From Epsilonproteobacteria bacterium 4484_65 (lineage in GTDB: Bacteria; Campylobacterota; Campylobacteria; Campylobacterales; Sulfurovaceae): 15,036 bases of DNA. The stretch lies in assembly GCA_002085305.1 (NCBI GenBank), contig NATJ01000017.1:1-15036 (forward strand), given 5' to 3'. The notes below the pieces were generated by a model. The model did no database searches, had not been told where the DNA came from, and saw only the letters and a list, made by a program, of their open reading frames with translations. Position numbers and translations under genes: made by a program. Position 1 is the stretch's first letter. The number at the start of each line of letters is the position of its first letter. This document shows, in pieces, positions 3,732 through 12,900 of this stretch.

Positions 3732-4421
3732 TTATTTTGTTTGCAAGATATAACCTACTCCATAGCTGCTTTTTATGGTCTCTTTTGGGAGTTTCTGACG
3801 GATGCGTTTCATAAGAGAAGTGATAGCATCTGAAGAGAAGTCCCGTTCTGGCTGGTCTTCATAAAGATAGTTATAGATATCAATAGCTGAAATACTTTGG
3901 TTAGTATGGGAACAGAGTAGCTCAAGTACTTTTTGTTCTTTTGGTTTTAATGCAATTTCATCTTCATTACGAAACAGTCTTTTTTTTGTCTTATCCCAAT
4001 AAAATGATTCTTTGAGATAGATGCGATTTTTCTTTTGTCGCAGTTCATCAACAAGTGAGAGGAGAAGTTCTTTGAGTTTGTCACTTTGGACAGGTTTTAT
4101 CAGATATTTTACCAAATGTAACTCTATGGCCTGCATCAGCTTCTCTTTTTCAGAGTGTGCTGTAGTGATGATGATCTTTGTTTTTAAATCTTTTTTACGG
4201 ATCTTTTCTATCATAGAGAGACCATCAAGACGAGGCATATGGATATCTGCGATGATAATATCAGGCTTTTCTTTTTCATAGATCTCATAGGCTGACAAGC
4301 CATCTTCGGCAGTATATACATGTTCAAAAAAGAGTTCTAAATACTCTACCATAGAGTTTAAAAGCTGTTGCTCATCTTCTGCGATCAAGATAGATATGTC
4401 ACTTATTTTTTCACTACTCAT
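3732..4421 (-). CDS. OmpR/PhoB-type response regulator (partner of the ODP kinase)
   Basis: Cytosolic two-component transcription factor of 229 residues. A receiver domain (about 9-125) has acidic pocket E15/D16, phospho-acceptor D59 in IIIADIHMPRLDG, T86/T87 in IIITTAHS, and conserved K109 in YLIKP. A short linker leads to a winged-helix DNA-binding domain (about 135-228), with LKPKEQKVLELL and the C-terminal wing SSYGVGYIL. All phosphorylation residues are present. The start overlaps the kinase stop by 8 nt (ATGAGTAG), implying translational coupling and a dedicated kinase-regulator pair. Target genes cannot be told from the sequence. The operon promoter upstream of the kinase carries an FNR-like box, so this regulator is probably expressed under the same control. 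Confidence 0.92.
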   Translation of the reverse strand: MSSEKISDISILIAEDEQQLLNSMVEYLELFFEHVYTAEDGLSAYEIYEKEKPDIIIADIHMPRLDGLSMIEKIRKKDLKTKIIITTAHSEKEKLMQAIELHLVKYLIKPVQSDKLKELLLSLVDELRQKKNRIYLKESFYWDKTKKRLFRNEDEIALKPKEQKVLELLCSHTNQSISAIDIYNYLYEDQPERDFSSDAITSLMKRIRQKLPKETIKSSYGVGYILQTK

Positions 4422-5937
4422 TTGTTTTCTCCATTGTTATACTAAATATGGCACCCTCATTAGAGTTTTCCACACTTAATATCCCATTCATATTTTTTTC
4501 AATGATCATTTTAGAGATGTAAAGACCTAGTCCTGTTCCCATGGACTTATGTTTGGTCGTGAAATAAGGGTCAAAAATGCGGTGCATATTTTCTTTTTTT
4601 ATCCCTCCCGCATTATCACTGATCTTCAATACGACATTATTATCTGTTTCAAACAGGTCTATTTGGATGTATGCATCTTTAACTTCTTTGTGTACTAAGG
4701 TATCTTTTGCATTGGTCACAATGGAGATAAGTACCTGCATGTACTCATTCATATAGCCATGTACATAAAATCCGTCACTGCTTTTAAAACGGATCTCAAT
4801 ATTTGCTTTATTGAGCATTGTATAGGTGATCTCCAATGCGTGCTCAACTACCTTGGAAACAGAAAAAGTTTTTTTCTCTTTATCAGGATGGTAAAAATGC
4901 ATAAAATCATCTATAGTTCGTGACATGTATTGGATACTGTTTTCCATCTCTCTTAACTTCTGGGAAAGTTCATCTGCCTGCAGGGTTTCTCTTTCATTCT
5001 TCTCTTTTAAGATAGAGATAAGTGTATTGTTCACTGCCAAAGGCTGACGCCATTGATGGGCAATGTTTCCTATCATCTCACCCATATCGGCCATTTTGGC
5101 TTTTTGAAAAAGAAGATCCTCTTTCTCTTTGATCTCATTCAATGATGCCAGAAGGGCAAGGTCTTTCTCTTTCAGCTCTTCAATGGTATCGATAAGCTCA
5201 TTACGATACCCTTCTTCGATATACAGACCACACTCAAGTGCTTTCATCTGTGCAATAAGTGGAGCAATTCTCTTCTTCTCAATGATAGAGCCATGTTGGG
5301 GTGCGATGAGGTTTATATCCAGGGTCTCTATTTTTGACAGGGCATAGTTGAAGATATCTCTACTTGGCATATATTCTGCATGAAACTCCTTTGCCTTTTC
5401 AAAATAATCATCTCCTGCATAAAACTCCCAAGACTCTTCAATCCCTCCAAATATATCACCGGAAAAGAGTGTTTTTGTCGAAGGTTCATACGTGACAAAT
5501 GCCCCGGGAGAATGACAGTAGGGTGTAGTTAAAAACTCCAAATGCAAGCCGTTGCTGTCAAGTTTATATTGATGTTTATCTATCTCATAATAGTCAGACT
5601 TGATCATATAGTGCTTTACAAGAGGTACCATGCGGCTATGTGTGATGATCAGCAGATCGTCACGATCGATTAGTTTTTCCATTTCAGGTACGGATGCAGC
5701 AAGATCAGGATCCTGGTGATGTAAGATAATATATTTTACAGCAGACATAGAAGAGAGAGTATTTATTTTTTTCACAACAGCATCAAATTCCAGCATTGAA
5801 CCCGGATCGACCAAAATAGACTCGTTGCCATTTTCTATAAAGTAGGGGTGACACTGAAAAGGGTCATTTTCAAGATACATACCGACCCAGTAAATGTTTT
5901 TTGCAATTTCTATTGCTTGTGTAAAATCCAAACTCAT
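4414..5937 (-). CDS. Soluble histidine kinase with N-terminal diiron (flavodiiron/ODP-like) metallo-beta-lactamase sensor domain
   Basis: A 507-residue kinase with no transmembrane segment or signal peptide, so it senses inside the cell. Residues about 10-235 match the MBL-fold diiron domain of flavodiiron proteins and ODP sensors: IYWVGMYLENDPFQCHPYFI, ILVDPGS, HHQDPDL (73-79), CHSPGAF (H142), FSGDIFGG (D161) and IAPQHG (H215). Compared with the flavodiiron set H-x-E-x-D-H/H/D/H, ligands H74, D76 (for E), D78, H142, D161 and H215 remain, but the sixth-position His is L79. A charged coiled-coil linker (about 245-283) leads to the HisKA H-box with H294 (IAHQWRQPL), then N-box N409 (IVTNAKDT), G1 DNAGG (441-445), F-box FDPYFTTK and G2 GTGLGL (467-472). 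Inference: an oxygen- and/or iron-responsive kinase. There is no flavodoxin domain, so it is not itself a flavodiiron reductase. It overlaps the response regulator gene. No Shine-Dalgarno precedes the ATG; the transcript may be leaderless. Confidence 0.88.
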   Translation of the reverse strand: MSLDFTQAIEIAKNIYWVGMYLENDPFQCHPYFIENGNESILVDPGSMLEFDAVVKKINTLSSMSAVKYIILHHQDPDLAASVPEMEKLIDRDDLLIITHSRMVPLVKHYMIKSDYYEIDKHQYKLDSNGLHLEFLTTPYCHSPGAFVTYEPSTKTLFSGDIFGGIEESWEFYAGDDYFEKAKEFHAEYMPSRDIFNYALSKIETLDINLIAPQHGSIIEKKRIAPLIAQMKALECGLYIEEGYRNELIDTIEELKEKDLALLASLNEIKEKEDLLFQKAKMADMGEMIGNIAHQWRQPLAVNNTLISILKEKNERETLQADELSQKLREMENSIQYMSRTIDDFMHFYHPDKEKKTFSVSKVVEHALEITYTMLNKANIEIRFKSSDGFYVHGYMNEYMQVLISIVTNAKDTLVHKEVKDAYIQIDLFETDNNVVLKISDNAGGIKKENMHRIFDPYFTTKHKSMGTGLGLYISKMIIEKNMNGILSVENSNEGAIFSITMEKTNE

Positions 5938-5943
5938 AGAAAT

Positions 5944-5985
5944 AGTATAGTCAAAAAAGTGTTACTTTTTCATGATTTTAATCAA
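5944..5985 (-). promoter_or_regulatory. Predicted FNR/CRP-type class II promoter of the kinase operon
   Basis: On the minus strand TATACT (5949-5944) is a good -10 element. Counting -12 to -7 puts the start at 5937, the A of the kinase ATG, so the mRNA would be leaderless, in agreement with the missing ribosome-binding site. ATGATTTTAATCAA at 5972-5985 differs from the FNR consensus TTGATNNNNATCAA at one of ten fixed positions. Its centre is exactly at -41.5, the classical class II activator position. The box is also about 80 bp upstream of the ilvB start, which fits regulation less well. The site is inferred from sequence only. Confidence 0.5.
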
Positions 5986-6047
5986 GAAAAAAGAGTATTT
6001 TTATCTGATTTAACTTTCAGTAAGTGTCACCTCTAATAATATTTAGC

Positions 6048-6053
6048 TATAAT
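6048..6053 (+). promoter_or_regulatory. ilvBN promoter (-10 element)
   Basis: TATAAT preceded by TTTAGC, with a T-rich upstream stretch and no clear -35, is the usual appearance of housekeeping promoters in Campylobacterota. The start would be near 6060, giving a leader of about 183 nt before the ilvB ATG, long for this compact region. It is the best -10 in the 305-bp gap between the divergent kinase and ilvB genes. Confidence 0.55.
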
Positions 6054-6170
6054 CAGAAAAAATTAAGACTCCCTTGTGAAACTTATGAAAAGGAGAAACG
6101 GCTTAGAGTGCATTAGTTTTTATTTTAAATACTCGAAGGACTAGCCTTAGCTAATTCTAGAGGAGTTAAA

Positions 6171-6191
6171 ATGAAAGAAGATGTGTTATAA
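6171..6191 (+). other. Possible leader peptide MKEDVL in the ilvB 5' leader
   Basis: A six-codon ORF, MKEDVL, has a very good ribosome-binding site (AGAGGAGTT at 6159-6167) immediately upstream and ends 51 bp before ilvB. Its last two codons are Val and Leu, end products of the pathway, which would suit translation-coupled attenuation. However, only one codon of each is present and I see no clear terminator hairpin after it. A second SD (AGGAGTG, 6230-6236) serves ilvB itself. The upstream ACTCCC (6069-6074) could pair with either GGAGT. Regulatory role is a guess; the ORF and its SD are directly visible. Confidence 0.35.
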
Positions 6192-6242
6192 GCTGTTTAT
6201 CTTTTTGGAAGTTTTGTAAGAAGTCTACTAGGAGTGTAAACC

Positions 6243-9922: not shown

Positions 9923-12900
9923 GTGTCCATAACAGAAACAATCAAATCACTTTTAGAAAAACGCATACTCGTCATTGATGGTGCCATGGGTACACAGATA
10001 CAAGACTTAGAAGTCCCGGCAGAAGCATGGATAGATGATAAGGGTGTAGACCAAGAGGGCTGTAATGAACTTTTAAATCATTCAGCCCCCGATATTATTA
10101 AACGTATACATAAACGTTATGCAATGGCTGGTGCAGATCTTATAAAGACCAATACTTTTGGGACTATGCCATGGGTACTTGATGAGTATCAGATGGGTGA
10201 ACGTGCGTATGAGCTTTCTAAAAAAGGTGCAGTACTTGTTAAAGAGATTTGTGATGAGTATGGTACGGAATCATCACCGAGATTTGTACTGGGTTCTATA
10301 GGTCCAGGAACAAAACTTCCCTCTTTGGGACATATCCATTATGATGAGATGTATGAAGGATATAAACTTTGTGCGTTAGGTCTCATTGATGGTGGTTGTG
10401 ATGTATTTTTACTTGAGACATGCCAAGATCCACTTCAGATAAAAGCAGCACTGCATGCCTGTGAAGCAGCCAATGAAGAACGTGATGTAAAACTTCCTAT
10501 CATGATTTCCGTAACTATTGAACTTTCTGGTTCTATGCTTATTGGTACGGATGCGCAGACAATTGTGACCATTTTAGAGCCATTTGACATACTCTCTTTA
10601 GGTTTCAACTGTGGTACTGGACCAGACCAGGTTAAAAAACACCTCAAAACACTCTCAGAACTCTGTGCTATACCTATATCAGTCCATGCGAATGCCGGGC
10701 TTCCTCAAAACCGCGGAGGGTATACCTATTATCCGATGGGACCAGATGAATTTACTGAAAAGCAACTTGAATTTACGGCCTTTGACGGGGTAAGTTTCTT
10801 GGGTGGATGTTGTGGTACGACACCGCAACATATTCAGGCACTTAAAAAAGCGGTTGAAGTTATAGTACCTAAAAAACCAAGTGGTAGCATAGAACCAAGT
10901 ATTGCTTCACTTTTTAACACGACTGAACTTTTCCAGGAACCTGCACCACTGCTTATAGGTGAGCGTTCGAACTCTACGGGTTCTAAAGCGTTTAGAGAAC
11001 TTATCATTGCCAGCGACTATGAAGGGACACTCACTGTAGGTCAGGCACAAGTACGTGATGGTGCACATTGTCTTGACGTGAATGTTGAGTTTGCAGGACG
11101 TGACGGGGCTAAAGATATGGCAGCAGTGATGGAGCTTTACAATCAAAAGATCCCTCTTCCGCTCATGCCAGATGCTACGCGTGTAAACACAATGGAAGAG
11201 GGACTAAAGCGCATAGGTGGTAAGCCTATCATTAACTCCGTAAACCTTGAAGATGGTGAAGAGAAATTGGATGCCATCTGTAAACTTGCTAAGAAATATG
11301 GTTGTGCATTGGTATGTTTAACCATCGATGAAGTAGGTATGGCAAAAACTACAGAAACAAAGTTGGCACAGGCAGAACGTATTTATGATCTGGCGGTGAA
11401 TCGTCATGGTATAGATCCTCGAAACCTTATTTTCGATATGTTGACCTTTACGGTAGGTTCGGGTGACTTAGAGTATCGTGATGCAGCTATACAAACCCTG
11501 GAAGCCATAAGAGAGTTACACAAAAGACATCCTGAAGTAGGTTCAACACTTGGTCTTTCAAACATCTCTTTTGGACTTGCAGTTAATGCCAGACGTTATT
11601 TGAATTCAGTCTTTTTACATCACTGTTTACAAGCAGGTCTGACATCAGTGATTATCAATGTTAAACATATCGTACCACTTGCCAAGATGAGTGAAGAAGA
11701 CAAAGCCATTTGTGAAGAGTTACTCTTCGCACCTGATGACCAGTCTCTCTTCAAATTCATAGAGCACTTCTCAGATGCAGTCATAGAAGATGATGGTGCA
11801 GATGAGGCATATGAAGCGATGAGTCCTGAAGAGAAGATAGCTAAACTTTTACTCGATGGTGACAAAGAACGTATGATTCCTTTAGTCGAAGAGGCACGTC
11901 ACGAGATAGAAGCAGATAAGATAGTCAACGAGATACTTATAGATGCTATGAAAGTAGTTGGGGAGCTTTTTGGTTCGGGACAAATGCAGTTACCATTTGT
12001 ACTTCAGTCTGCTGAGACTATGAAGACAACGGTGGACTACCTAAATCCATACTTGACGAAGCAAGAAAAAGATACAGACACCACACTTGTCATAGGTACA
12101 GTAAAGGGTGATGTGCATGATGTAGGTAAAAATCTTGTAGATATCATCCTATCTAATAATGGTTTCAAAGTGGTCAATGTAGGGATAAAAACAGACTTGC
12201 AAGAATACCTTGATGTGGTAGAGAAACAATCTATTCAAGCTATTGGTATGTCTGGGCTTTTGGTGAAGTCAACGGCTGTAATGAAAGACAACCTGGAAGC
12301 TATGTCAGAGATGGGTATGAAGATACCTGTACTTCTTGGTGGAGCAGCACTTACACGAAGTTTTGTCGATGACTTCTGTCGTCCTATCTATAAAGGGCCT
12401 ATCTTTTACTGTAGAGATGCCTTTGATGGGGTTATTGCTATGAGTAGGATTGAAAAATTTAATGAAGACAATAGCATTGGGCTAGACACTCGTATGGCTG
12501 GTGACATGGTAGAACGTAAAGAGAAGGTTAAAAAAGAGGTTGTAATCCCTCCTTTTGAAGAGATCAAAATGCCTGAACGTGTAGAGATACCTACACCACC
12601 ATTTTGGGGACGAAGAGTACTCCAAAAAGAAGATCTGGATATAGATACGATTTATGAGTGGATCAACACTCGTTCAGTCTTTAAAATGCATTGGGGTTAT
12701 AAAAGTAAAGGTATGGACAAAGCGGAGTATCAAAAGCTCATAGATGAAACAGTCTACCCTGCCTTTGAACGTTTGAAAAAAGAGTTCGTAGATAAAGGGT
12801 TGTTTGAACCTACCATTATTTACGGTTACTACCCATGTAGATCTGATGATCAGGAGTTATTTTTGTTCGATGAGAGTGAAGGGTGGAATATAGATGCCAA

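Follow-up and report, generated by a model that had tools for sequence, protein, structure and literature searches.

A diiron-type ODP sensor joined to a histidine kinase in Sulfurovum and Sulfurimonas, and its likely conversion to a one-component regulator

The window that we analysed is a stretch of 15,036 nucleotides of Epsilonproteobacteria bacterium 4484_65 (GCA_002085305.1, contig NATJ01000017.1, forward strand), and by its sequence it holds a gene pair for a soluble kinase of the ODP-HisKA-HATPase type and a response regulator of the OmpR type. In sister lineages the same kind of sensor is found joined directly to a winged-helix DNA-binding domain (wHTH), and we hold it fairly probable that this is a collapse in place, so that the same diiron sensor would drive the same kind of wHTH either through phosphotransfer or through direct fusion. 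All three building blocks, sensor domain, kinase core and regulator, belong to known kinds. What appears to be new, as far as the open literature searched shows, is the fusion to a kinase, the location in a denitrification cluster and the apparent conversion in place to a one-component protein. That literature yielded no report of ODP fused to a kinase or to a wHTH; it did not cover the main ODP paper, in which fusions may be mentioned.

The gene pair

The kinase gene (4414-5937, reverse strand) has an ATG start and codes for 507 aa. The protein begins with an ODP-family diiron-type sensor domain of predicted beta-lactamase fold (residues 1-240; 5218..5937, reverse strand) with the ligand set H74-x-D76-x-D78, H142, D161 and H215. 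It is followed by a linker (residues 241-284; 5086..5217, reverse strand), to judge from its residues probably a signalling helix or coiled coil, and by a complete HisKA/HATPase core, in which the HisKA phosphoacceptor and dimerisation domain (residues 285-349; 4891..5085, reverse strand) has His294 in the motif AHQWRQP and the HATPase_c domain covers residues 400-504 (4426..4740, reverse strand). The Pfam profile of the ODP family, PF19583, matches residues 27-216 with an E-value of 2.1e-58 and 197.9 bits against a cut-off of 27.2, which places the domain in that family. Lactamase_B matches with 41 bits, HisKA at 285-349 with 32.1 bits (cut-off 26.9) and HATPase_c at 400-504 with 61.8 bits. 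These E-values rule out chance similarity, as do the 924 homologues at E <= 1e-3, out of 1622 candidates, that a search with residues 1-245 returned. The initial annotation had claimed a diiron domain of the ODP/flavodiiron type fused to a histidine kinase, and this is upheld by the profiles, the PDB relatives and the conservation. The Pfam matches and the hydropathy also agree with its description of a HisKA/HATPase core that lacks a membrane segment: over 19 residues the mean hydropathy of the kinase peaks at only 0.94, which gives no sign of a transmembrane segment.

Two features had escaped that annotation, a conserved promoter and a response regulator gene that overlaps the kinase gene. 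The regulator, of the OmpR type, is encoded at 3732-4421 (reverse strand) and the overlap is 8 bases. Its receiver domain (residues 1-125; 4047..4421, reverse strand), identified by Pfam and from the sequence, contains Asp59 and Lys109, and its OmpR-type winged-helix DNA-binding domain (3735..4037, reverse strand) is a relative of the wHTH that is fused to ODP elsewhere. The parts of a two-component system are thus all present: the phosphoacceptor His in HisKA, HATPase_c, the receiver Asp and Lys, and the wHTH. Counting the ODP-kinase ORFs that have no receiver of their own, in the window and in L003-L066, a REC-wHTH gene lies immediately downstream in 39 of 41; the two exceptions are L031, where the contig ends, and L054, which has a different REC gene. 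One locus, L166:1-261 (G479), shows a second copy of the regulator wHTH at a contig edge beside a full ODP pair, and this is either a strain mixture or a second system. Scans of the window with Rfam and ARAGORN gave no matches.

The sensor domain and its family

The closest PDB relative of the sensor is the ODP of Thermotoga maritima (6qrq, E 6.4e-25), followed by that of Treponema denticola (6qnm, E 2.4e-18). Flavodiiron proteins give weaker matches, the best being 1ycf with E 1.2e-8; in a structural comparison they are nearly tied with ODP. The motifs HHQDPD, CHSPG, SGDIFGG and PQHG start at residues 73, 141, 159 and 213, and every position that had been named as important beforehand (H74, D76, D78, L79, H142, D161 and H215) is confirmed in the translation of the ORF. 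Aligned to the Thermotoga ODP the motifs pair as HHQDPDL/THQDPDV, CHSPG/LHSTG, SGDIFGG/SGDIGAA and PQHG/PQHG, and the ligand set H-x-D-x-D, H, D, H is the one of T. maritima ODP. The flavodiiron metal motif is HxExDH, and Asp76 in place of Glu and Leu79 in place of His had for that reason been taken as oddities that might alter the site. We reject this idea, since T. maritima ODP has the matching H-x-D-x-D-V (HQDPDV); the pattern means that the sensor is an ODP domain and not a degenerate flavodiiron one. The window sensor shares the order of its motifs, and by prediction its fold, with the flavodiiron proteins NorV, ROO and FprA, but it reads HxDxD[LV] (HQDPDL at 74-79) instead of HxExDH, and Pfam finds HisKA/HATPase instead of a flavodoxin domain.

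The guess that the HHQDPDL form is common to a family in related bacteria turned out well, as a large family was found. In an alignment of the window protein with its relatives, all six ligands are kept in 47 of 47 sequences, and L79 is conserved in at least 90% of the alignment. The four motif patterns also fit 220 of the 223 kinase ORFs, 23/23 wHTH ORFs and 7/7 other ODP ORFs with more than 58% identity to the window domain, numbers that stand for ORFs and not for species, as loci and proteins overlap. The three deviating kinase ORFs read CHAPG or AHAPG, with the His retained.

Close relatives of the ODP-kinase are common in Sulfurovum and Sulfurimonas, with homologues in the named strains Sulfurovum lithotrophicum and Sulfurovum sp. 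NBC37-1, and a genome scan for ODP homologues gave 64 loci. The outputs joined to ODP are varied and include HisKA-HATPase, PAS-kinase, hybrids of GAF, kinase and receiver, GGDEF with or without PAS, SpoIIE with TPR, and the OmpR-type wHTH. The ODP-SpoIIE-TPR proteins were seen in spirochaete MAGs, where L051, L052 and L053 carry a SpoIIE-type phosphatase and TPR behind ODP and share their neighbours (Pfam on L051 only). The ODP genes at L061:5364-6093, from a Leptospiraceae MAG, and in G064:C1 are apparently broken by a frame change or stop codons.

ODP as described so far is a protein on its own that acts together with a cytoplasmic chemoreceptor and CheA (PMC7666581). Both the T. denticola protein (TDE2498) and that of T. 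maritima (PDB 6qnm, 6r9n, 6qrq, 6qwo) stand alone, whereas the domain is here fused to a kinase or a DNA-binding domain; by eye no chemoreceptor gene was recognised among the ORFs of the window. FixL and other soluble O2-sensing histidine kinases work in a similar way, as soluble kinases with a gas-sensing input, but FixL uses a haem PAS domain and the input here is a non-haem domain of the diiron type. Hemerythrin is a four-helix fold, and NorR, the NO sensor of E. coli, has a mononuclear iron in the GAF domain of a sigma-54 activator. The latter resembles what is proposed for the present system in placing an NO-removing system under non-haem iron control. Hemerythrin domains serve as non-haem diiron O2 sensors in bacterial signalling (PMC9388753). 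They are likewise of the non-haem diiron type, but their fold and ligands are unrelated to those of ODP.

Gene neighbourhoods and denitrification

In Sulfurimonas the kinase-regulator pair forms the 3' end of a run of nor and nir genes on the same strand, in the order norC-like, norB-like, nirS-like, cytochrome c, nirJ, nirF/N-like, nirE and then the ODP pair. The norC-like gene was called by its position and CxxCH motif as a c-type cytochrome, with no NCBIfam match, the norB-like gene by PF00115, the nirS-like gene by PF02239 together with cytochrome c and the nirF/N-like gene by PF02239; nirJ matches TIGR04051 with 382 bits, below the equivalog cut-off of 515, and the role of nirE was assigned to a uroporphyrinogen-III methyltransferase. 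Among the 47 ODP-kinase locus entries (L017 and L167 being one contig), nirE lies within 12 kb in 23, nirS in 20 and norB in 17. The start of the kinase gene overlaps the stop of nirE by 8 bases in 19 of 22 measured loci, which makes co-transcription likely; in two the overlap is 1 base, and in one the kinase starts 1 base behind nirE.

The best PDB match of the NirS-like protein is NirN (148.8 bits), followed by NirS (121.3 bits). LHDG and PHPGQG, which we take to be the two catalytic His motifs of NirS, are both found in 19 of 20 NirS-like sequences, the remaining one being truncated. One Sulfurimonas example, at L020:4772-6472, scores higher with NirN than with NirS among PDB structures but contains both motifs, LHDG and PHPGQG, and is probably a divergent NirS. 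S. denitrificans has NirS and NorBC, as stated in a paper on this organism (PMC6682613).

The gene that follows the pair is nrdD in 5 of the 47 entries, four of the PAS-kinase loci (L008, L009, L015 and L016) and in addition L029, and a Crp/Fnr-type box upstream of nrdD was found in none of the five. In the vicinity of L008 there are genes for a siroheme decarboxylase (AhbAB/NirDL) and CysG-N. In Sulfurovum, the window included, the neighbours of the pair are ppx and in most cases ilvB, with nir and nor lying elsewhere; L012, L017 and L169 have a different gene at the ilvB position.

A cytochrome-d1 match (PF02239) is present in 25/25 genomes found with the ODP-kinase and regulator, as against 165 of 398 overall, a comparison in an order-level sample that is confounded by kinship. 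Within the genus of the window (g1) and a second genus, with loci placed among those of Sulfurimonas (g24), the system is present in 22 of the 38 genomes whose match is strong (E < 1e-50) and in 0 of the 12 that have no such match, counted by hand from the matches listed and leaving out unlisted g24 genomes. Fisher's test, which ignores kinship, gives p = 0.0004 for the pooled genera, 0.006 for g24 and 0.12 for g1 alone. The system is missing from 16 of the 38 strong-match genomes and hence is not required for denitrification.

Promoter and candidate regulator sites

Upstream of the ODP gene, at 5973..5985 (reverse strand), there is a Crp/Fnr-type palindrome, TTGATTAAAATCA, that is kept in both the kinase and the one-component versions, and a -10-like TATACT (5944..5949, reverse strand) lies 29 bases from its centre and 6 bases before the ATG. 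All 13 intergenic regions, 10 from kinase and 3 from one-component loci, have a box of the form TGA[T/C]N4ATCA, with T in 12 of them, and in all 13 its centre is exactly 29 bases before a TATACT-like hexamer (TATACT in 11, TATAAT in 1 and TACACT in 1) that lies 5-7 bases before the ATG. This conservation suggests that the transcript of the ODP gene is probably leaderless. The spacing of 29 bases puts the box near -41, and Crp/Fnr proteins activate from sites near -41. With the element at such an activator-like position, the Sulfurovum pair is probably expressed under low oxygen. The box pattern was observed twice in the window against 0.23 expected; the second match (TTGATN4ATCA) at 10179-10191 lies inside metH and is probably due to chance. 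The region between the ODP gene and ilvB measures 305 bases in the window (5938-6242), 296 in L005 and 126-174 in the other 11 loci, and the extra stretch of the window sits on the ilvB side. By eye, only the Crp/Fnr-type box and two -10-like elements are conserved throughout these Sulfurovum intergenic regions.

No candidate site for the regulator was seen in the nor promoters of Sulfurovum, among 9 loci with ODP-kinase and 2 with ODP-wHTH. In Sulfurimonas, a repeat like TTTC-N5-GTTACA is found upstream of the first nor gene (e.g. L028), about 58 bases upstream of a Crp/Fnr-type box, and it is a candidate for the regulator site. A strict pattern finds it in 12 of 18 loci with ODP-kinase and 1 of 7 without, and a relaxed one in 16/18 and 1/7; the single locus without ODP-kinase that has the repeat, L208, is from a genome with a variant ODP. 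The repeat largely tracks one phylogenetic split, and its distribution is thus no independent evidence for such a role. The Crp/Fnr-type box upstream of nor is found, by pattern, in Sulfurimonas in 18/18 loci with ODP and 7/7 without, and in Sulfurovum in 8 of 9 with ODP-kinase, 2/2 with ODP-wHTH and 6 of 7 without, and being independent of ODP presence it is uninformative on the ODP regulator.

What the pair may sense

On balance we lean towards the view that the ODP kinase and regulator are a diiron sensor system for O2 (or NO) that serves anaerobic respiration. The ODP domain would carry two irons and bind the gas, and occupancy of the site would shift the balance between kinase and phosphatase through the linker helix. 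The phosphorylated regulator may then adjust genes for anaerobic respiration, i.e. nir, nor and heme d1 synthesis, and nrdD in the PAS variant. The 2019 work on ODP reportedly found O2 bound as a stable peroxo species. T. denticola ODP is known to sense O2 in chemotaxis (PMC7666581). This precedent, together with the settings beside nir/nor and nrd genes, leads us to read the domain as a diiron O2 sensor, with NO as the main rival.

That NO is the signal is a tentative alternative, to which we give less credence: the diiron site would bind NO made by NirS, and the cell would respond with more NO reductase or less nitrite reduction. The cluster around the pair both makes and removes NO, and the flavodiiron relatives of the sensor are well established as reducing NO, but the T. 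denticola precedent and the nrdD gene beside the PAS variant point to O2. It is rather unlikely that ODP reads no gas at all, responding instead to iron availability or redox, or to a small organic ligand as PqsE, a protein of the same fold, may do. ODP has reportedly been proposed, in the work published in PNAS, to sense iron as well as O2, and chains of PqsE also match the structural model of ODP-wHTH; against this stand the respiratory gene context in Sulfurimonas and the six metal ligands kept without exception in the alignment.

An O2 sensor of this kind would be of interest because S. denitrificans has been described as so far seeming to be for the most part constitutive, its putative transcription factors numbering only 53 (PMC6682613). 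The ODP kinase is a concrete candidate for a haem-free regulator, and it is present in both named Sulfurovum strains.

The one-component form and its origin

In three Sulfurovum MAGs (L013, L014 and L024, the same as L158, L159 and L157) ODP is joined directly to the winged-helix domain in a protein of about 353 aa, and the kinase and receiver are absent. This ODP-wHTH form shares its neighbourhood and its Crp/Fnr-like promoter with the kinase version: in each of the three loci ilvB is the neighbour at the promoter, and in L024 ppx lies on the opposite side, a point that the contigs of L013 and L014 do not reach. The three wHTH domains are 61-63% identical to that of the window regulator; for the partner regulators the corresponding figures are 53-82% in Sulfurovum and mostly 40-50% in Sulfurimonas. 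Among the matches listed for 175 genomes of the family, 3 genomes have ODP-wHTH, 16 have a kinase-length ODP ORF and none has both, and the partner-regulator wHTH is present in 15 of the 16 kinase-type genomes and in 0 of the 3 others. All three ODP-wHTH genomes also carry NirS-like genes with a PF02239 match. The architecture occurs in 14 protein clusters altogether, and it makes up 10 of the best 120 of the 924 homologues.

The likely direction of change is from two components to one, once or twice, since the one-component proteins are nested among the two-component ones in both trees. In the wHTH tree (101 columns), rooted on 14 other OmpR-type regulators whose long branches we flag, all 16 ODP-wHTH rows fall inside a clade of 38 rows together with 22 partner regulators (support 100/99). 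In the ODP tree, whose outgroup is not clean, all 15 ODP-wHTH rows fall inside a clade of 33 rows together with 18 kinases (support 100/99). The fused linkers (GYRNELLLSLSESQRHTLYL) resemble those of the partner regulators (LKTLLLSLVDELRSQRHTLAL; L070 and L072), with SQRHTL in both, so the end of the last receiver helix and the linker were apparently kept in the fusion. The one-component form would thus have arisen by deletion of the kinase core and receiver in place, and as the pair measures 2.2 kb and the fused ORF 1.08 kb, we infer a deletion of about 1.1 kb. In the product the diiron domain would gate DNA binding itself, without phosphotransfer. If this is true, a diiron switch can take the place of receiver phosphorylation in controlling a winged helix, and the two forms in one neighbourhood are a ready system for comparing control of a wHTH with and without phosphotransfer.

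The direction that we infer is opposite to the usual course. Ulrich, Koonin and Zhulin reportedly proposed in 2005 that one-component systems were the origin of two-component systems, and an ancestral ODP-wHTH into which the kinase and receiver were inserted later would fit that textbook order. We reject it as very improbable, because ODP-wHTH is nested within the partner-regulator clade and the kinase clade, with the caveats on the outgroups given above, and because the linker of the fusion resembles that of a regulator. That the ODP-wHTH genes are assembly chimaeras is hardly credible, even if all three genomes are MAGs and short metagenome contigs are the source of most clusters, given the 14 protein clusters from several sources, the position of ilvB in 3/3 loci and of ppx where the contig extends, and the ordinary divergence of 16 of 17 rows within a supported clade.

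The collapse from two components to one possibly happened twice. One ODP-wHTH protein, P0124, has a different, shorter junction and groups apart from the others, and a concatenated tree needs two changes (bootstrap 5-95%: 2-2), while the AU test does not reject a single clade of ODP-wHTH (p 0.239).
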